A stretch of DNA of 64,000 nt from assembly GCA_016125495.1 (NCBI GenBank), contig WGLQ01000004.1:1-64000 (forward strand). The letters run 5' to 3'. The position numbers were made by a program, and so were the translations under genes. Below, piece after piece: positions 33,272-61,314 of this stretch. The stretch comes from Hyphomicrobiales bacterium. GTDB lineage: Bacteria > Pseudomonadota > Alphaproteobacteria > Rhizobiales > RI-29. The notes beneath the pieces were generated by a model. That model had not been told where the DNA came from, did no database searches, and was given only the letters and a program-made list of their open reading frames with translations. Within the stretch, counting starts at the first letter, position 1, and each line of letters begins with the position of its first letter.

Positions 33272-34240
33272 TCACCCCTCGCCGTCTTCGGCTCGCGGCA
33301 CTTGCCGGCGCTTTCGCTCGATGAGCACACCGAGCGCAAGGAAGATCGCCGCGACCGATGCCCACACCCAGATGCTCGGGCGCTCGCCGAACAGCAGATA
33401 GCCCCACGCGAATCCGGCGAGGATCGTGAAATAGCTCGCAAAGGAGACGAATATGCCGCCGCGCGAGCGCACCACGTGAAAGAAGAGATAGACCCCTCCG
33501 ATCATGACGAGCGCAAGCCCAGCCAACGCCAGGAGTACTTGCGGCGCTGCCGCCGTGAGCGTCGTGAAGTCGCCGAAGGCGAGCGCGAACGGAAGGATGA
33601 GCAACGTCGCCACGATCACCTCGCCCGTCGAGGCCTGGAGCACGTCGATACGGTCCGGCCAGGCGTGTGCCACATAGAGATTGTCGATGGCGTAAAAGAG
33701 CGGGATGGCAACGGCCACAGCCGCCCAGCTGGCCATCTCCGGCGTTGGCAACGCGGCCTCCGGAACGAGGATCAGCAGCGTCGCGGCCGCCCCCAGCAGA
33801 ACCGCCGCTCCGGTCCGGCCGGTCACCGGCTCGAGGCCGAGCAGTGCCGCACCCGCCACGGTCAGGAGTGGTGTCGTCGAGGTGACGAGGGTGAGGAGGC
33901 CGGCATCGACATGGTCGGCGACCAGGAAGAAAATCACGAGCGGTCCGAGATAGCCGAGCGACCCACTGGTGAGGAAGAAGCGCACCGTGCGCGGTGTGAA
34001 AGGCACGGTCCGGCCGGCGGCCACGGTGATCGCAATGAAGCCGACCGCGATTGCCGCGAGCGTCACGGTGAGGGCGGCCAGTTCGTTCAATCCTGCCTCG
34101 ACGGCGGTCTTGACGAGCGCCGCCTCGAGCCCCCAGCCGAGTCCGAGCGCAACGAGCGCCAGGCCGTCCCCGATCCCGATCGGCCTAGCACTGCGAAGGG
34201 CGCCGGTTGACCCCTCGGGCCGCTGCTCCACTTCCACCAT
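33272..34240 (-). CDS. EamA/DMT-family transporter
   Basis: 322 residues with ten predicted membrane helices in two five-helix repeats: the first begins GIGDGLALVALGLGWGLEAAL, the second WAAVAVAIPLFYAIDNLYVA. The C-terminal helix pair with FVSFASYFTILAGFAWGYLL and GERPSIWVWA is the typical EamA ending. It would move an amino acid, amine or similar small metabolite. Start at 34240 shares a base with the upstream ureohydrolase stop (TGATG), so the transporter is coupled to that enzyme and may carry its substrate or product. A 350-residue in-phase upstream extension is antisense-type reading and is rejected. Confidence 0.88.
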   Translation of the reverse strand: MVEVEQRPEGSTGALRSARPIGIGDGLALVALGLGWGLEAALVKTAVEAGLNELAALTVTLAAIAVGFIAITVAAGRTVPFTPRTVRFFLTSGSLGYLGPLVIFFLVADHVDAGLLTLVTSTTPLLTVAGAALLGLEPVTGRTGAAVLLGAAATLLILVPEAALPTPEMASWAAVAVAIPLFYAIDNLYVAHAWPDRIDVLQASTGEVIVATLLILPFALAFGDFTTLTAAAPQVLLALAGLALVMIGGVYLFFHVVRSRGGIFVSFASYFTILAGFAWGYLLFGERPSIWVWASVAAIFLALGVLIERKRRQVPRAEDGEG

Positions 34241-35205
34241 CACGATCGGACCGGTTGGCGCCGACGGATCGCCTGAAGCGCCACCATGTCGAGCACCAGC
34301 GTCGCCGCCGCGAGTGCCGTGATCTCGGCGTGGTCGAAGGGCGGCGAGACCTCCACGAGGTCCATGCCGACGATGTCGAGGCCGGTAAGTCCTGCCAAGA
34401 GCTTGCGGGCCTGGTGCGTCGTCAGCCCGCCGCAGACCGGCGTTCCGGTGCCGGGCGCATGCGCCGGGTCGAGGCAATCGATGTCGAAGCTGAGGTAGGC
34501 CGGGCCGCCAGCGACCACGGCTCGGATTTCGGCGATGGTCTCGGCGAGGGGACGCTCGTGGACGCGATCGGCATCGATCACCGTGAGGCCATGCGTCTCG
34601 GGGTTGCCCGAGCGGATGCCGACCTGCACCGAGCGCGCGGCATCGATCAATCCCTCCTCGACCGCGTGAAAGAACATGGTGCCGTGGTCGATCCGTTTGC
34701 TCTCCTCCCGCCACGTGTCGGAATGGGCATCGAACTGGATGAGCGACAGCGGTCCGTGTCGTTCGGTGTGCGCCTTCAAGAGACCGTAGGTGACGAAATG
34801 ATCGCCGCCGAGCGAGATGAGCGTCGTGTCCGCCGCGATCAGCGCCGCCGCATGGGCGCGGATTTGCTCGCCGATCGTGTCGGGTCGCCCGAACTCGACC
34901 GCGAGATCGCCGGCATCGACCACCTCGAGTTGCTCGAACGGATCGAACGACCACGGCCACATGCCCCCGGGCCAGGCGAGGTGCGCGCTGGCGGCGCGGA
35001 TGGCCCGTGGCCCGAGCCGCGTGCCTGGCCGGTTGGTGACGGCGAGATCGTAGGGAATGCCGGTGAAGGCGACGTCCGCGCCCCCCGGCTCGGTGCGATA
35101 GGGCCTGCGGAACATGCTGAGCACGCCCGAGAAGGTGTTCTCCGCCCCGATGCCTCGCGCGCTGGCGCCCCGCACGGCACGGTCGACCAGGAACTCCTCG
35201 TCCAT
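34240..35205 (-). CDS. Ureohydrolase of the agmatinase/guanidinobutyrase family
   Basis: 321 residues. The binuclear manganese site motifs are complete: SLGGDHFVTYG (His), QFDAHSDTW (Asp-Ala-His-Ser-Asp) and SFDIDCLDPAHAPGTGTP (Asp-x-Asp). The GTGTP loop after the last motif is typical of agmatinase and guanidinobutyrase rather than arginase. It hydrolyses a guanidino compound to urea and an amine. GGAGG six bases before the ATG settles the start. It is coupled to the EamA transporter and divergent from a class III aminotransferase, which could take the resulting amine or omega-amino acid onward. Confidence 0.88.
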   Translation of the reverse strand: MDEEFLVDRAVRGASARGIGAENTFSGVLSMFRRPYRTEPGGADVAFTGIPYDLAVTNRPGTRLGPRAIRAASAHLAWPGGMWPWSFDPFEQLEVVDAGDLAVEFGRPDTIGEQIRAHAAALIAADTTLISLGGDHFVTYGLLKAHTERHGPLSLIQFDAHSDTWREESKRIDHGTMFFHAVEEGLIDAARSVQVGIRSGNPETHGLTVIDADRVHERPLAETIAEIRAVVAGGPAYLSFDIDCLDPAHAPGTGTPVCGGLTTHQARKLLAGLTGLDIVGMDLVEVSPPFDHAEITALAAATLVLDMVALQAIRRRQPVRS

Positions 35206-35419
35206 CGCTCGCCTCCGATCCACACGGTCCGTCGTCGCCCCGGAGCCGCCCTTTGCGCGACGCCCGATCCTGTCGAACCGCCATTCGAATGAACTAACGC
35301 TGCCGCCCGGCGTTGTCGAGCGCCAGCAGTGAACGCCCCGAAGTGCCACATGCGCGCAGTTGTTCCGATGGGCTTCGCCGCCGGATCTGGCAGGTCCGGC
35401 GATCATCGCCGCGCGCGGG

Positions 35420-35448
35420 TTGTCAGGTTCGGGTGCTTATCATACAAT
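35420..35448 (+). promoter_or_regulatory. Near-consensus sigma-70 promoter for the class III aminotransferase
   Basis: TTGTCA (35420-35425) and TACAAT (35443-35448) are separated by exactly 17 bases, close to the housekeeping consensus and unusual in this GC-rich sequence. Transcription would start near 35455, about 45 bases before the aminotransferase ATG. Confidence 0.65.
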
Positions 35449-35461
35449 CATTCGACAATGA
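35448..35461. promoter_or_regulatory. Small inverted repeat overlapping the predicted transcription start
   Basis: TCATT-CGAC-AATGA is a perfect five-base inverted repeat directly after the minus-10 box, where a repressor operator would block transcription. Such short palindromes also arise by chance, so this is a candidate only. Confidence 0.3.
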
Positions 35462-43888: not shown

Positions 43889-45784
43889 CTAGAGGCTGGC
43901 CGGTCGCTCGAGGTTGGCCGCGACCGGCATGTCTGCCCGTACCCATCGCTGGAAAGCCGCCACGGCACTCTCCTTGGTGGGGTTGAGGAGGCCTGCGGAG
44001 TAGGCGCCGCTCGCCAGCCCTTTCTGCACTTGCGCGATCAGGGCCAGATCCTCGCCGTGCACCGCGAGGTTGATGCGGCGATTGAGCCAGCGAGCCGCCT
44101 TCATTCTGCGGTCGTCGCTCGGGTGTCCGTAGTTCCGGAACCGGATGCGCGATCGGCCGGGCCCGAGCGGCAGCACGTGCATGTAGTTGACCCCATCGGG
44201 ATAGATATTGAAGGCGACGCCCGGATAGAGGAAAAAATAGGTCCAGCGCCGCCGCATGTCTTCCGGCAGGTGCTCGACGGTCGGGAGCAGGTTCGCATAG
44301 GCCTTGACCGACCAGCCGCCCTTGGGTTGCTTTCGCATGGCATGGCTGAGCCGGATCACCCGCGTGGCGTCGTCCGACTTGCGCTCGTAGGCGAGGCTCA
44401 TCAGGGCGAAGAGCCCCGGGTGGCCGGTCGGGAAGTGGTAGTCCTCGAGGTAGTTGTCCCAGACGTTCTTCCAGTCCGCCTCCATCTCGTCGTCGAACGT
44501 TTCGTCCAGCGCCACCATCTCCTCGATGCGGTAGCGCGAGAGTTCCTCGGCATGCGGCGCGAGCCGGGCGGAAAGGCTCGCCCCCCCGCCCGGTCCTGGC
44601 GACCTCGGGCGCACGAAAACGAAACCGAACGCGATTTCGCATTCGACGGGCTTCAGGGAGAACGCGCCGCTATCGAAGGGAGGAAATGCCTTCTCGCCCG
44701 CCACGGCCCTGAGCTGGCCGTGATGGTCGAAACCCCATGCGTGATAGGGACAGCGGATGAGCCCTTCGCAATGTCCTGCGCCGCGAACCAACGGATGCGC
44801 GCGATGGGTGCAGACGTTGTGGAAGCCGCGCACCTCACCGTCCTCGCCACGGATGACGAAAACTCGCTCGCCGATGAGGTCGAGGCTGGCGTGTGCGCCC
44901 GGGCCGGCGATGTCGCTGACATGGCAGACCGGATGCCAGGCTGAAAGGTGGATTTCCCTGCGCTCGGCCTCGGCGAAGGTGCTCGAGCAATAGGTCCAGG
45001 CCGGAAGCGTGCGGGCTTCGACGAGCGCGTCGGGTTCACGTCCGCTGTCACCGGAGTGCGCAAGTGCCGCGGTGCCTTGCCTCGCTTCGGCCGATGTCGC
45101 TGAAAACGCATCCGGGAAAAAATTCCTGAGGTAGCGATGGCAGAGGGAGATCGCCTCGCCTCGCTCGAAGCTCGCGCGCTCGAGCAGAATGCGCTGCCAG
45201 AGGCTGTCGATCAGCCCGTCGAGCCCACGTGCCACGCTCTCGGCATCGAATGCCAGGTTGTCGCGCCGTATCAAGGCCTCGCACTGCTTCAGCATGATGT
45301 CGAATGCGAGTTTCTCACCACTCCCGCAGAGCGCCTGATACTCCTCGCGCGCTTGTGTTTCGGACCAGAAGGCATAGGTTGCCGCGACCTTTTCCGGGCT
45401 CGATAGCCGGCTGGAGAAGTTCACGTCGATCAGTGCCTTGAGCACATCCGCCGGATCACCGCTGGAGGCGGCGGCGGCTTCCTCGATGCCGCGCTGATAT
45501 TCCTCCGCCAATTCACGGAGCGCGGCCGTCAGCAGCGACTGTTTGGTCGCGAAGTGGAAGTTGACCATGCCCGCCGTCAGCCCGGCGAGCCCCGCCACCT
45601 TGGCGAGCGTGACGTCGGCTAGTCCGTGCGTGGCGATGACCTGGATCGTCGCGGCGATGAGTTCCTGACGCCGGTGATCGCCATGCCGGCGGTCTTGACG
45701 GGTGGGCGGTGCGGCGCGGCCGGCGCGGGCCGGTCCTGCGCTCTCGCTGGCGCCACCGGGTGCGCTGGCTGGTCGGTCGGGCAT
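43889..45784 (-). CDS. TetR (BetI-like) repressor fused to Rieske non-heme iron oxygenase
   Basis: One 631-residue open frame. Residues about 36-225 form a complete TetR regulator: HTH region (ATIQVIATHGLADVTLAKVA, AGLTAGMVNFHFATKQSLL) and a BetI-like ligand domain with DGLIDSLWQRILLE. About 35 linker residues follow, then a full Rieske oxygenase alpha subunit: TLPAWTY N-terminus, 2Fe-2S ligands Cys325, His327, Cys345, His348 (CTHRAH and CPYHAWG), and the mononuclear iron site NYLEDYHFPTGH (His450, His455) with Asp579. The bridging residue is Glu447, as in carnitine monooxygenase CntA, not the usual Asp, which points to quaternary amines. The linker has no ATG, GTG or TTG in frame, so the oxygenase cannot start separately. 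AGAGG lies six bases before the ATG. No reductase partner is nearby. Confidence 0.88.
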   Translation of the reverse strand: MPDRPASAPGGASESAGPARAGRAAPPTRQDRRHGDHRRQELIAATIQVIATHGLADVTLAKVAGLAGLTAGMVNFHFATKQSLLTAALRELAEEYQRGIEEAAAASSGDPADVLKALIDVNFSSRLSSPEKVAATYAFWSETQAREEYQALCGSGEKLAFDIMLKQCEALIRRDNLAFDAESVARGLDGLIDSLWQRILLERASFERGEAISLCHRYLRNFFPDAFSATSAEARQGTAALAHSGDSGREPDALVEARTLPAWTYCSSTFAEAERREIHLSAWHPVCHVSDIAGPGAHASLDLIGERVFVIRGEDGEVRGFHNVCTHRAHPLVRGAGHCEGLIRCPYHAWGFDHHGQLRAVAGEKAFPPFDSGAFSLKPVECEIAFGFVFVRPRSPGPGGGASLSARLAPHAEELSRYRIEEMVALDETFDDEMEADWKNVWDNYLEDYHFPTGHPGLFALMSLAYERKSDDATRVIRLSHAMRKQPKGGWSVKAYANLLPTVEHLPEDMRRRWTYFFLYPGVAFNIYPDGVNYMHVLPLGPGRSRIRFRNYGHPSDDRRMKAARWLNRRINLAVHGEDLALIAQVQKGLASGAYSAGLLNPTKESAVAAFQRWVRADMPVAANLERPASL

Positions 45785-45847
45785 CGGCTACCTCTGGTGC
45801 TGGGCACGCGGGTCTCGTCTCGGGCGAGCTTACGCACCGCGCGCCTC

Positions 45848-45863
45848 TCGAACAAGCATTCGA
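45848..45863. promoter_or_regulatory. Inverted repeat upstream of the TetR-Rieske gene, candidate operator
   Basis: TCGAA-CAAGCA-TTCGA forms perfect five-base arms 63 bases upstream of the start codon, in the 132-base gap after the EamA gene. TetR regulators usually bind such palindromes in their own promoter, so it could be the autoregulatory site of the fusion protein. The arms are short, hence low confidence. Confidence 0.35.
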
Positions 45864-45916
45864 TTATCGTCCCGACATCCTGCCGACGCCGGACGACGGA
45901 GGAGCCCGCCTGGGCG

Positions 45917-47182: not shown

Positions 47183-48055
47183 ATGTCGCCGCGACCCAAC
47201 GTCCACGAGCCACCGGCAGCCACACTGGTGCGTGTGCGTGAGGGGCTCGACAGGAACGAACTGACCGACCGGATCTTCTCCGGCGATCTCGTGGCTTTCG
47301 AGGGCCTCCCCTCGGCCGCTCGCATCGTCGCACTCGCGCGCGACGTTCTCGCCCGCGAGTTCGCCCCGCTCGATTGCATGACGGCGCACGAAAACCTCGA
47401 TCCGGCGGCGCTCAAGTCCCGCTTGCTCGCGGCACGGCGACGCTTTGCCAGCGACCCCGAAGTGGCCGCGCGCTATGCAGCCATGCTGATCGAGGCCGGC
47501 TGCGATCCGCGCGAGACCTACCGCGACCGCTTCGTTCTGCGCGGCGTCCCGCCGGTGCGCGCTCTCGACGCAGACACACGTGTGGTGTTGCCCGCCCACC
47601 GGGATACGTGGGGTTCCGGTTTTCCTGCCCAGATCAACTGGTGGATGCCCGTGCACCCGCTGGTCGACGGGCGCACCATGGTGATCTACCCGGATGCGTT
47701 CCGCGCGAAGGTTGCCAACGACAGCGAGGGCTGGGATTGGCGGCGTGCCCGCCAGCCGGGCTATCCGGCGCTTCCCACGGCGCCCGCATCCATGCTCGCA
47801 GGATTGTCGGCCCGCCCCGTCCTGCTCGAGCCGGGCACATTGCTCGCCCTTTCGGGCGCGCATCTCCATGCGACACAGGTGAACCGCACGCCTCTGCCGC
47901 GCTTTTCGACCGACACGCGCACTGTCGACCGACGCGATCTCCTCGCCGGTCGCGGCGCCCCCGACGTCGATCATGGCCGCGTTCCGTTCGCCTGCGAGTG
48001 GTTCCGCCGCCTCGGCGATGGTAGCCCGCTGGCGATCAACGACTTGGGCGCTTGA
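47183..48055 (+). CDS. Fe(II)/2-oxoglutarate oxygenase-like protein (jelly-roll fold)
   Basis: 290 residues, cytoplasmic. VVLPAHRDTWGSGFPAQINW (134-153) provides the HxD pair (His139, Asp141), and LEPGTLLALSGAHLHATQVN (215-234) the distal His (227 or 229) on the typical PGTL-x-FSG strand; RFSTDTRTV (240-248) supplies an Arg for the 2-oxoglutarate carboxylate. Together this is the 2-His-1-carboxylate site of the phytanoyl-CoA-hydroxylase-like branch. The length is close to PhnY, which hydroxylates aminoethylphosphonate, but I cannot claim orthology. GAGGGG and a short spacer precede the ATG. It is followed, at 198 bases on the same strand, by an HD-domain gene of the kind that cleaves hydroxylated phosphonates. 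Confidence 0.72.
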   Translation: MSPRPNVHEPPAATLVRVREGLDRNELTDRIFSGDLVAFEGLPSAARIVALARDVLAREFAPLDCMTAHENLDPAALKSRLLAARRRFASDPEVAARYAAMLIEAGCDPRETYRDRFVLRGVPPVRALDADTRVVLPAHRDTWGSGFPAQINWWMPVHPLVDGRTMVIYPDAFRAKVANDSEGWDWRRARQPGYPALPTAPASMLAGLSARPVLLEPGTLLALSGAHLHATQVNRTPLPRFSTDTRTVDRRDLLAGRGAPDVDHGRVPFACEWFRRLGDGSPLAINDLGA

Positions 48056-48253
48056 GGGAACCGACAAAGGTCCGCCGCTGTCTATATCCGCCGCTCGATC
48101 GCGCGCGTTCACTCTTGCCCGCCGGTGCGGTGCTGCTAGTGTCCGCGTTCGGAGCCCAGTGGCGCCGCGACGATGGTTGAAGGTCTGGATCGTGGTTCGG
48201 GGGACGCGGCGGACGCGACCGTTCCATCGTCCGAAATCCGAAGGGTGAGAGCG

Positions 48254-48865
48254 ATGGCGAATGCGCGAGTGGTCGGTTTCCGCCAGATGAAGGACGGCAC
48301 GCGGGAGGATTATGCCCTGCTCGAGGAGTTGGAGCATGATTTTGCGGCCGGCCTGCCCTCGCGAATCATGCGCGCCATGGCCGAACTCGACGAATCGCTC
48401 TCCGGCTATCAGGTCACCCGCCTCGAGCACTCGCTGATCTCGGCCACCATGGCCGAGCGCGATGGCGCCGACGCCGACTGGGTGGTCGCCGCGCTCATCC
48501 ACGACATCGGCGACGGCCTCGCTCCCTACAACCACGACAGTCTCGCCGCCGCGATCGCAGCCCCTTATGTCCGCGACGAATGCACGTGGGTCCTTCGCAC
48601 CCACGGCATCTTCCAGCTCTTCTACTATGGTCACCACGTCGGCGCCGACCAGCACGCCCGCAACAAGTACCGCGACCATCCGTTCTACGAGTCGGGCGCG
48701 CTCTTCACGGAGCGCTGGGATCAGTCCGCATTCGATCCCGATTACCCCTTCCAGCCGCTCGAGCATTTTCGCCCGGTCGTCGAGGAGGTCTTCACCCGCA
48801 AGGCCTGGGACGAGCGCAATATCCGCACCGGTGTGCGTGTTCCGATGGTGCCGGGCCGCGCCTGA
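48254..48865 (+). CDS. HD-domain protein of the PhnZ/TmpB-like diiron oxygenase type
   Basis: 203 residues. The HD metal ligands can be followed in order: VTRLEHSLISATMAERDGAD (His59), VVAALIHDIGDGL (His83, Asp84), PYNHDSLAA (His94), VLRTHGIFQLFYY (His117) and ERWDQSAFDPDY (Asp156). This six-ligand pattern with EHS and HDIG is that of the mixed-valent diiron oxygenases PhnZ and TmpB rather than of hydrolytic phosphohydrolases, and the size (about 190-200) fits. PhnZ and TmpB oxidatively cleave alpha-hydroxyphosphonates made by a partner Fe/2-oxoglutarate oxygenase, which the preceding gene resembles. Databases tend to label this family phosphohydrolase. GGTGAGAG precedes the ATG. The substrate is unproven. 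Confidence 0.72.
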   Translation: MANARVVGFRQMKDGTREDYALLEELEHDFAAGLPSRIMRAMAELDESLSGYQVTRLEHSLISATMAERDGADADWVVAALIHDIGDGLAPYNHDSLAAAIAAPYVRDECTWVLRTHGIFQLFYYGHHVGADQHARNKYRDHPFYESGALFTERWDQSAFDPDYPFQPLEHFRPVVEEVFTRKAWDERNIRTGVRVPMVPGRA

Positions 48866-58839: not shown

Positions 58840-61314
58840 TCAGGCCCGCACGCGCGCCGATGTCGGATCGTACATCGGCTTGAGGCTCGCCTCGGCGGCA
58901 ACGCGACGTCCCGCGACGTCCACCTCGTAGCGCGAGGCGAGCACCTGAGCATCGCTCTCGCCCCGTTCGCAGCTGACGTAGCCCATCGCGATGGCTCCCC
59001 CGAGGTGGTGGCCATAGTTGCCGGACGTCACGTAGCCGGCGAGCGCGCCGTCTCTGTAGATCGGCTCGAAGTGGTAGACGAGCGGCTCGGGATCGGTGAG
59101 ACGGAACTGGAGCATTCGCCGCGTGAGCCCCTCCTGGCGCCGGCGTAGCACCGCCTCGCGGCCGATGAAGTCGCCGAACCGTGAGGCCTTCTTGTCCGCC
59201 TTGACGGCAAAGCCGAGCCCTGCCTCGAGCACGTGATCCTCATCCGACATGTCGTGACCGAAGTGCCGATAGGCCTTCTCGATCCGGCACGAGTCGAGGG
59301 CATGCAGCCCGGCCGGACGCAGGCCGAGACCGACGCCCTTCTCGAGGAGGCAGTCGAGCACGTGGCGCGCCTGATCGGCGCTCGCATAGAGTTCCCAGCC
59401 GAGCTCGCCGACGTAGCTGATGCGGTGTGCCCGAACAAGTCCCATGCCGAGTTCGATCTCGCGTGCCGTGCCGAACGGGAAGGCCGCATTGGAGAGGTCG
59501 GCCGGCGTGCACTGGCTGAGCACTTCGCGAGATTTCGGTCCCATCACCGCGATGACGCCCTCCCCCGCCGTCACGTCCGTTGCGATGCAGTGGGCCTCGT
59601 CCGGGATGTGCCGCTTCAGCCAATCGAGGTCACGCCGCACCGTCGCGGCCGGCGTGACGACGATGTACAGGGTCTCGCTGAGCCGGGTAACGGTGACATC
59701 GGCCTCGACGCCGCCGCGCCGGTTGAGCCATTGCGTATAGACGATGCGCCCGGGCTCGACGGCCATGTCGTTCGCCGAAACCCGTTGCAGAACGGCCTCC
59801 GCGTCCCGCCCCTCGACCCGGATCTTTCCGAACGAGGAGAGATCGAACAGCCCCGCTGCTTCCCGCACCGCCTTGTGCTCATCGCCCGAGTGCGCGAACC
59901 AGTTCTGCCGCCCCCACGAGTATTCGTAGGCCGGCTTTTCTCCGCTCGCCGCGCGCCCCGGCGGCAGGAACCAGTTCGCCCGCTCCCAGCCCGCCGTCTC
60001 CCCGAAACACGCGCCGAGCCCTTCGAGCCGGTCGTGCAGCGGGGTGCGGCGCACGCCGCGCGCGGAGGCGAATTGCCGGTAGGGGAAATGATCCGCATAG
60101 AGCAGCCCCAGCGTCTCGGTCACGCGGGCTTCGAGATATGTCCGGTTGGCCTGGAACCCCTGTATCCGCCGGATGTCGAAATCCCAGAGGTCGAATGGCG
60201 CTTCGCCCGCATCCATCCACTCGGCGAGCGCCTTGCCGGCGCCACCCGACGAGACGATACCGATGGAATTGAATCCACAAAGCATCCAGAAGCCGCCGAC
60301 CCCCGGCGCCTCCCCCATCAGCCAGCGGTCGTCCGGTGTGAAGCTCTCCGGCCCGTTGAAGAAGGTGTGGATGCCGGCCGTCGCGAGCACGGGCAGGCGC
60401 TTGACCGCCATCTCGAGGATCGGCTCGAAATGCTCGAAGTCCTCCGGCAGTTGGTCGAAGCAGAAATCCTCCGGTATGCCCTTCATGCCCCAGGGCTTGG
60501 CCACCGGCTCGAAGGCACCGAGCAGGATTTTTCCGGCGTCCTCCTTGTAGTAGGCGCATTCCTCCGGCGCGCGCAGCACCGGCAGGTTGCGTGGCAGATC
60601 CGCGATCGGCTCGGTCACGATGTAGAAGTGCTCGCAGGCCTGCAACGGCGTTGCGACGCCCGCCATCGCGCCGACCTCCCGTCCCCACATGCCGCCGCAG
60701 TTGACGACGATATCGGTCTCGATCGCTCCCTGGTCGGTGGTCACGCCCCGGACGCGGCCCTTTTCCACCTTGATACCCGTAACCTTGACGCCCTCGATGA
60801 GGCGCGCGCCGGCCTGCCGGGCCCCCTTTGCCATGGCGAGGGCGACGTTGGCCGGGTCGGCCTGCCCGTCGCGCACGATGAACATTCCGCACCTGAGGTC
60901 GGTGACGTTGAGGAGCGGATATTTGTCGAGGCACTCTTTGGGCGAGAGCATGTGCGTCTCGAGCCCGTTCATGTTGACGGCCGCCGCCAGCCGGCGCACC
61001 TCGTCCTCGCGCTCGGCCGACTTGACGGCGAGCAGGGAGCCGTTGCGCTTCATGCCGGTCGATATTCCGGTCTCGGCCTCGAGGCTCTCGTAAAGGTCGG
61101 CCGAGTACATCGAGAGGCGCTGTACGTTGGGGCTCATGCGCCCCTGCGAGATGAGACCGGCGGCATGCCAGGTCGTGCCCGAGGTGAGCTGCTTGCGCTC
61201 GAGCAGAACGACGTCCTTCCAGCCCAGCTTGGCGAGGTGGTAGGCGACCGAGCATCCGGCGACGCCGCCGCCGATGATCACGCAGCGCGCCGACTTGGGG
61301 AGCTCCGTTGCCAT
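58840..61314 (-). CDS. Dimethylglycine/sarcosine-dehydrogenase-like FAD protein with GCV_T domains
   Basis: 824 residues, standard for this family. CVIIGGGVAGCSVAYHLAKL (about 11-30) binds FAD; SGTTWHAAGLISQGR (about 45-59) contains the His that carries covalent FAD in dimethylglycine dehydrogenase. The FAO_M segment follows (NGPESFTPDDRWLMGEAPGV), then the GCV_T aminomethyltransferase-like half (about 430-800: RVSYVGELGWELYAS-type segment, GLRPAGLHALDSCRIEKAYR). It removes a methyl group from a methylated glycine, passing it to tetrahydrofolate or releasing formaldehyde. GGAG eight bases before the ATG fixes the start. The gene is directly downstream of an ABC transporter for a small anionic or zwitterionic compound, likely its supply. 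Confidence 0.88.
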   Translation of the reverse strand: MATELPKSARCVIIGGGVAGCSVAYHLAKLGWKDVVLLERKQLTSGTTWHAAGLISQGRMSPNVQRLSMYSADLYESLEAETGISTGMKRNGSLLAVKSAEREDEVRRLAAAVNMNGLETHMLSPKECLDKYPLLNVTDLRCGMFIVRDGQADPANVALAMAKGARQAGARLIEGVKVTGIKVEKGRVRGVTTDQGAIETDIVVNCGGMWGREVGAMAGVATPLQACEHFYIVTEPIADLPRNLPVLRAPEECAYYKEDAGKILLGAFEPVAKPWGMKGIPEDFCFDQLPEDFEHFEPILEMAVKRLPVLATAGIHTFFNGPESFTPDDRWLMGEAPGVGGFWMLCGFNSIGIVSSGGAGKALAEWMDAGEAPFDLWDFDIRRIQGFQANRTYLEARVTETLGLLYADHFPYRQFASARGVRRTPLHDRLEGLGACFGETAGWERANWFLPPGRAASGEKPAYEYSWGRQNWFAHSGDEHKAVREAAGLFDLSSFGKIRVEGRDAEAVLQRVSANDMAVEPGRIVYTQWLNRRGGVEADVTVTRLSETLYIVVTPAATVRRDLDWLKRHIPDEAHCIATDVTAGEGVIAVMGPKSREVLSQCTPADLSNAAFPFGTAREIELGMGLVRAHRISYVGELGWELYASADQARHVLDCLLEKGVGLGLRPAGLHALDSCRIEKAYRHFGHDMSDEDHVLEAGLGFAVKADKKASRFGDFIGREAVLRRRQEGLTRRMLQFRLTDPEPLVYHFEPIYRDGALAGYVTSGNYGHHLGGAIAMGYVSCERGESDAQVLASRYEVDVAGRRVAAEASLKPMYDPTSARVRA

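Follow-up and report, generated by a model that had tools for sequence, protein, structure and literature searches.

A single gene in the window (the whole stretch of 64,000 nucleotides analysed here) encodes a TetR-type transcriptional repressor and a Rieske oxygenase as one polypeptide of 631 residues. The gene (43889..45784, reverse strand) starts with ATG, contains no internal stop codon, and carries both sets of domains in one frame. Near-full-length homologues are found elsewhere. The first-pass annotation of this DNA had proposed such a one-piece protein, and the proposal is upheld, both by the four domains in one frame and by the recurrence of the arrangement in other genomes.

Domains and active site of the fusion protein

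All four Pfam domains exceed their gathering scores. The N-terminal half consists of a TetR_N helix-turn-helix (residues 42-87; 45524..45661, reverse strand; PF00440, 30.4 bits, cut-off 24) and a TetR_C_6 domain, the BetI-type C-terminal domain (residues 111-223; 45116..45454, reverse strand; PF13977, 40.3 bits, cut-off 27). The C-terminal half comprises the Rieske [2Fe-2S] domain (residues 283-366; 44687..44938, reverse strand; PF00355, 68.7 bits, cut-off 20.3) and the catalytic mononuclear iron domain, Ring_hydroxyl_A (residues 432-618; 43931..44491, reverse strand; PF00848, 127.3 bits, cut-off 24.9). The two halves are connected by a linker (residues 230-259; 45008..45097, reverse strand) that is predicted to be disordered (pLDDT <50). 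In an AlphaFold2 model, the TetR helix bundle and the oxygenase fold appear as two complete folds, with low confidence for residues 230-259. The model was built from seven sequences (mean pLDDT 74.3, pTM 0.56), and the relative placement of the TetR and oxygenase halves therefore carries no meaning. When the modelled oxygenase fold was compared with solved structures by Foldseek, the best match was CntA (4.9e-19).

As the first-pass annotation had noted, the linker is devoid of in-frame ATG, GTG or TTG codons; there are none between residues 200 and 317 of the window fusion, and the first start-type codon after the linker is a GTG at residue 318 (44831-44833), within the Rieske domain. The further claim that the oxygenase cannot be separately translated holds for these three codons in the window, but not for the 13 other fusions checked, each of which has at least one ATG, GTG or TTG between residues 224 and 282 (window numbering); the argument from a missing start is thus limited to the window fusion. 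The run of six T near the end of the TetR part, also pointed out earlier, is real in the window sequence but is not shared by the nine other fusions checked, in which the longest T run at this position is 1-3. Programmed slippage at this run is ruled out, since the run is not conserved.

With TetR_N above its cut-off, the protein is a TetR-family repressor. Like BetI, it combines TetR_N with TetR_C_6, and its best NCBIfam matches are two BetI models (NF001978, 112.5 bits, cut-off 118; TIGR03384, 112.0 bits, cut-off 201.3). Unlike BetI, it scores below both of these cut-offs and is joined to an enzyme. The GbcA model NF058607 is likewise matched below cut-off (103.6 bits against 670), so the fusion is related to both families without belonging to either. 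The earlier label 'BetI-like' is therefore apt for the domain type and the closest models, but does not extend to membership of the BetI family. The 13 neighbouring window proteins that were scanned include neither a bet gene product nor a reductase.

The oxygenase half has the hallmarks of the α-subunits of Rieske non-heme iron oxygenases (CxH...CxxH and a 2-His-1-carboxylate site). The cluster ligands are C325, H327, C345 and H348, and the iron site consists of H450, H455 and D579 with the bridging residue E447, together with Y445 and D448. Except for D448, all of these residues are kept in 15 of the 16 fusions compared (see below). CntA is also the best PDB match of the fusion by sequence (3e-35); the alignment equates E447 with E205, H450/H455/D579 with H208/H213/D323, and Y445 with Y203, where the CntA numbers follow from the alignment and a 20-residue offset (own arithmetic). 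According to PMC7948474, Y203 of CntA binds the quaternary ammonium group via a π-cation contact, E205 is named as the bridging Glu, and a Tyr or Phe at position 203 defines clade Va of the group V Rieske oxygenases. Both marks of this clade, the aromatic residue at 203 and the bridging Glu at 205, are present in the fusion, which thus shares with CntA and group V the bridging Glu, the 2-His-Asp iron site and the aromatic Y445. Glu447 as a bridging residue, as in CntA, is accordingly confirmed by the alignment, and the suggested kinship with quaternary-amine enzymes agrees with CntA being closest in the PDB and with the group V aromatic residue.

There are also differences to CntA, besides the fusion of the oxygenase to a TetR domain. 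The cysteine pair C206/C209 of CntA corresponds to D448/F451 in the fusion. In CntA, C206 is ~4.4 Å from the substrate, whose ammonium group points to it (PMC10952381). The combination of D448 with F451 is found in 13 of 16 fusions, whereas none of the set's 71 standalone homologues has D448, which makes it a distinguishing mark of the active site in the fused group. With D448, this group gains a negative charge next to the site that binds the cation, and we take this to suit a polyamine or guanidine substrate.

The partner that would supply electrons was sought more widely. A crude scan for motifs among the ORFs of the fusion loci revealed no adjacent reductase, and no CntB/GbcB-like reductase was found in the genome from which the window derives (G000), where PF00970 has one match only; both are weak evidence. 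This sole match sits in a protein which, by eye, we take to be BoxA-like. The same genome harbours eight Rieske-oxygenase-like places, the fusion included, versus this one PF00970 reductase match.

Recurrence, selection and origin

A search across genomes for TetR and Rieske domains in one protein had been suggested along with the original proposal; queries with the protein itself did recover fusions, and 16 distinct ones remain after removal of repeats. With the window protein as query, fusions were found in 5 of 61 related genomes. Where the best three candidates per genome were scored, so that a lower-ranked fusion would be missed, fusions are present in at least 8 of 397 genomes of the order, at least 3 of 385 of the class, and at least 1 of 398 of the phylum (solely that of the window itself); the four genome sets overlap. 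One scan of genome contigs yielded nine loci with fusions at seven, among them three Inquilinus limosus records (two strains and one MAG) with ~50% identity to the window protein. Another of the seven, in a record deposited as Mycobacterium sp. KBS0706, is close to the fusions of Inquilinus limosus. Identity to the window protein is 48-51% in 11 of the 15 other fusions, 41% in L043 and G222, 37% in G397 and 34% in G004. L128 (G850) has the same protein as L044 and is counted once, and the partial copies L103, L117 and L118 are left out of the oxygenase tree and of the residue counts. Among 72,556 plasmid records, 12 match at 1e-30, none of them spanning 80% of the protein.

Both halves are under selection. 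In six pairs formed by four Inquilinus-type sequences, dN/dS ranges from 0.06 to 0.15 for the TetR half, from 0.13 to 0.23 for the oxygenase half, and from 0.14 to 0.98 for a 24-codon linker. The low values for both halves indicate that purifying selection keeps the two. An origin of the fusion as an artefact (frameshift, chimeric assembly or pseudogene) could be suspected, as the draft genome is in 36 contigs and the T run lies near the end of the TetR part. The probability of this is negligible: colinear one-frame homologues occur in many assemblies, strain records included, and the T run is absent from the nine other fusions checked. These homologues rule out a frameshift, an assembly artefact or chance.

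Two of the variants deserve a separate description. The G004 fusion (L013 1501-3183; G004:C1:206043-207725; P0002) is an open frame of 561 aa whose identity to the window protein is 48% in the TetR half and 27% in the oxygenase half. Nine of the 11 key positions examined are changed, including Rieske and iron ligands; H327 and H455 are kept. This dead form, present in one of four genomes of its family, is possibly an enzyme turned regulator by loss, or it may reflect decay. In G222 (L079 8140-11315), the fusion shares its final 4 nt with an intact ORF for a standalone Rieske oxygenase.

In the oxygenase tree (a quick tree with SH-aLRT support only, L127 and L129 not included), a main group contains 11 fusions with the standalone G130 inside (SH-aLRT 89). 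A second group unites G222 and G397 beside the overlapping standalone oxygenase of G222 (SH-aLRT 91), and G004 forms a long branch outside the fusion groups. In the TetR tree, which covers all 16 fusions, 14 of them, G004 included, fall into one group (SH-aLRT 94) that also holds two non-Rieske TetRs, L045 and L046. Its TetR half thus places the dead G004 protein in the main fusion group. A single clade of fusions is rejected by AU tests on both trees: for the 13 live fusions on the oxygenase tree (p 0.0003), and for the TetR tree by the position of G222 and G397 outside the main group (p 8e-15, with long branches present). The trees would fit two separate joinings, or else a single old one that was followed by splits.

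L046 (7995-8999) is a different case and is left out of the fusion counts; there, a TetR of the main-group kind is joined in frame to a non-Rieske tail. Judging by a motif, this tail may resemble an IS3 OrfA-type helical segment.

Operator-like palindromes and neighbouring genes

An 18-bp palindrome with the consensus ATCGAATG-NN-CATTCGAT lies upstream of the fusion gene in 13 of 16 cases (L001, L009, L010, L011, L038, L039, L040, L042, L043, L044, L047, L127 and L129). It was not found upstream of L049 and L013, i.e. the G397 and G004 fusions, and the record of L041, also counted among the 16, lacks the upstream DNA. The presence of such an operator-like element before 13 of 16 fusion genes makes self-control likely; in other words, the fusion likely controls its own production.

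In the window, the palindrome before the fusion gene (45847..45864) is located 63-80 nt before the ATG and scores 17.5 bits, the second-best value. The best site (35439..35456; 19.0 bits) precedes a class III aminotransferase gene, and the third-best (35272..35289; 14.3 bits), an exact TCGAATGNNNNTTCGA match, lies 67 nt before an agmatinase start. On the reversed 64-kb sequence, the best site reaches 8.1 bits. The site at 45847..45864 is one match with three mismatches to the consensus versus 0.29 expected in shuffles. The site matrix was built without the tested site, with all Inquilinus sites left out together; L127 and L129 were never part of it.

Across the 13 loci, the fusion promoter (either copy) carries the best site of the locus in ten and the second-best in three (the window, G038 and L040), where a better site is found at another gene. 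In L042, the tandem copy ranks best and the primary site third. The best score on reversed sequence comes close to that of the promoter in L039 (17.0 versus 17.1) and is high in L040 (15.3), L042 (13.0) and L043 (12.4). In ten of the 13, the palindrome lies inside promoter-like boxes (TTGnnn or TTTACA, 17-18 nt, TAnnnT); this arrangement is absent at the window's own site, L043 and L047. A second copy follows 20-21 nt on in L009, L010, L011, L038, L039, L040, L042 and L129, and is weak in L043 and L044; the window's own site has no tandem copy.

A strict pattern, TYRAAYGNNCRTTYRA, was applied to nine genomes. It has one match each in G013 and G222, both at the fusion promoter, but misses the fusion promoter in G000, G037, G038, G795, G796 and G797, where the sites are less regular; there are no matches at all in the G004 and G797 genomes. 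In G037 and in G038, one further match each coincides with the start of a standalone Rieske gene, and in G795 one lies at an aminotransferase-type gene, whose Inquilinus counterpart (L040) belongs to a BLAST cluster with class III aminotransferases. As the back-to-front control gives 1-3 matches in G037, G038, G795 and G796, single strict matches in these genomes may be due to chance. With up to one mismatch, TCGAATGNNNNTTCGA has 33 matches in the own genome (both strands) versus three for the control. Where standalone BetI-like repressors are present, the palindromes could serve these instead. A perfect 18-bp palindrome at G000:C4:119890 (L109 5890) may mark a further regulon member; the flanking genes are, as far as we can tell by eye, paired FAD oxidoreductases and a methyltransferase-like gene. 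In the same genome, a strict-pattern site at C18:22177 is situated inside a gene, and a weaker site is found near C7:126109.

Two possible regulon members are the genes on either side of the sites at 35272 and 35439, ~10 kb from the fusion. One is of the agmatinase family (34240..35205, reverse strand; PRK02190, 424.8 bits, cut-off 302; TIGR01230, 238.9 bits, cut-off 174.3), with its start taken at Met68 of a longer ORF (34240-35406); the other encodes a class III aminotransferase (PRK07036; 35500..36894, forward strand; NF005447, 630 bits, cut-off 618). The window also contains a gene resembling those for glutamine/gamma-glutamylputrescine synthetase (scores below the cut-offs), genes for another aminotransferase and for a protein of the ornithine cyclodeaminase family, and one for S-formylglutathione hydrolase; this last enzyme could deal with formaldehyde released by a demethylation. 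In other genomes, an agmatinase gene lies just upstream of the fusion (G037), a lysA-like PLP decarboxylase gene adjoins it (G013, below model cut-off) or is two genes away (L043), and the standalone relative in G130 lies beside aminotransferase and transporter genes (names partly by eye). No single partner gene is common to the fusion neighbourhoods; the lists derive from our own gene caller, which miscalls antisense frames in high-GC loci, and are therefore incomplete. Taken together, the operator-like sites and the neighbours point to agmatine/polyamine-type genes, and the common theme of the neighbourhoods is amine or polyamine catabolism.

Other parts of the window are less readily named. 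Two neighbouring ORFs (47183-48052 and 48173-48862, both forward strand) have no Pfam or NCBIfam matches at the thresholds used; the latter presumably contains an HD-like motif, as seen by eye. An 824-aa protein (58840-61314, reverse strand) matches NCBIfam models of the GcvT and sarcosine oxidase types, though with scores under the cut-offs, and adjoins genes that we take, by eye, for those of an ABC transporter.

Possible modes of action

The reading that we consider modestly probable is that of an autogenous repressor-enzyme, with the TetR half on its operator, a pathway amine as inducer, and the oxygenase consuming this amine. The TetR half would dimerise and bind the 18-bp palindromes, both in the promoter of the fusion gene and near genes of amine catabolism, which in the own genome would be the agmatinase/aminotransferase pair. 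The C-terminal half would be catalytically active as a Rieske oxygenase of the CntA kind, with an amine cation from that pathway as its substrate. By binding in the TetR pocket, at the oxygenase site or in both, the amine would cause the protein to leave the DNA, allowing expression of its own gene and of the pathway; removal of the inducer by the oxygenase would then restore repression. From the sequences, we infer DNA binding, catalysis and switching of the fusion, and an inducer that is the substrate or a pathway metabolite.

Autogenous repressor-enzymes are already known, namely trifunctional PutA (proline utilization A; PMC5293562), and the fusion is therefore a new build of this kind rather than the new form of trigger enzyme announced in the first-pass annotation. 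The accompanying idea of a protein able to sense and demethylate one and the same quaternary amine is not supported as it was put: the operator-like sites and neighbouring genes suggest agmatine or polyamines, and D448 takes the place of C206 of CntA. Like PutA, it has a DNA-binding domain and an enzyme in one reading frame, and the proposed logic is similar, although the fusion is known here from sequence. By build it is not a PutA. PutA combines a ribbon-helix-helix with flavoenzyme domains and switches to the membrane, whereas the fusion combines a TetR with its own C-terminal domain and a Rieske non-heme iron oxygenase. No TetR-Rieske fusion was found in the literature with open licences, which is weak evidence of absence. 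If the autogenous reading is true, the fusion is a further natural design, beside PutA, of a catabolic enzyme that carries its own repressor.

Alternatively, the oxygenase half may be a sensor of substrate, oxygen or redox state that gates DNA binding via its iron centres, with turnover secondary or absent. We regard this as unlikely, but it accommodates several observations. Such a development would have reached its end in G004, with an enzyme half devoid of metal ligands: nine of 11 key positions are changed, and 48% identity is retained in the TetR half, by which G004 groups with the main fusions. A dedicated reductase was not found by the motif search of the loci or by PF00970 in the own genome, and in G222 the overlapping standalone oxygenase could do the chemistry. 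There is a precedent in BzdR, a catabolic repressor with a DNA-binding and a shikimate kinase-like domain that derives from shikimate kinase (PMC3602430). The enzyme domain of BzdR is inactive, whereas 15 of 16 fusions keep every ligand, the bridging Glu and Y445, all of which would be dispensable if the half were no more than a ligand pocket, and G004 alone resembles BzdR. The low dN/dS of the oxygenase half also speaks against a mere sensor, and the dead form, found in one of four genomes of its family, may be decay. Live fusions, a standalone relative within the fusion group and the dead G004 form a series that raises the question of how enzymes become regulators; the fusion poses another, whether the DNA binding of a TetR repressor can be under direct redox control.

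It is also conceivable, if distinctly improbable, that an ordinary repressor and an ordinary enzyme are simply joined for co-expression, with the linker as a mere tether, or are cut at the linker as a processed polyprotein. The predicted disorder of the linker and its fast evolution in some pairs would be compatible with this, as would the start-type codons that all 13 other fusions checked carry in this region. The linker of the window fusion has no start codon, however, and the fusion is kept in the genomes of several families, in two groups on both trees; these points speak against a simple joining.

A further question is how repressor and enzyme, which differ in symmetry, combine into one assembly. 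TetR repressors pair with two-fold symmetry. Oxygenases of the CntA type assemble head to tail into trimers with three-fold symmetry (PMC7948474), and the whole protein could therefore close as a D3 hexamer. In CntA, electrons pass efficiently from one subunit to its neighbour only when substrate is bound. It is rather doubtful, but attractive, that such a catalysis-gated hexamer with three DNA-reading heads holds tandem and distant operators (35272/35439 and 45847) in one complex. The tandem operators 20-21 bp apart in eight of 13 fusions would then be held by the three heads. Given the substrate-dependent electron transfer in CntA, the assembly would read substrate together with oxygen or reductant, and would release several promoters simultaneously. 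Its tuning to a polyamine- or guanidine-type cation, not betaine, would come from the D448/F451 pair, which is confined to the main fusion group.
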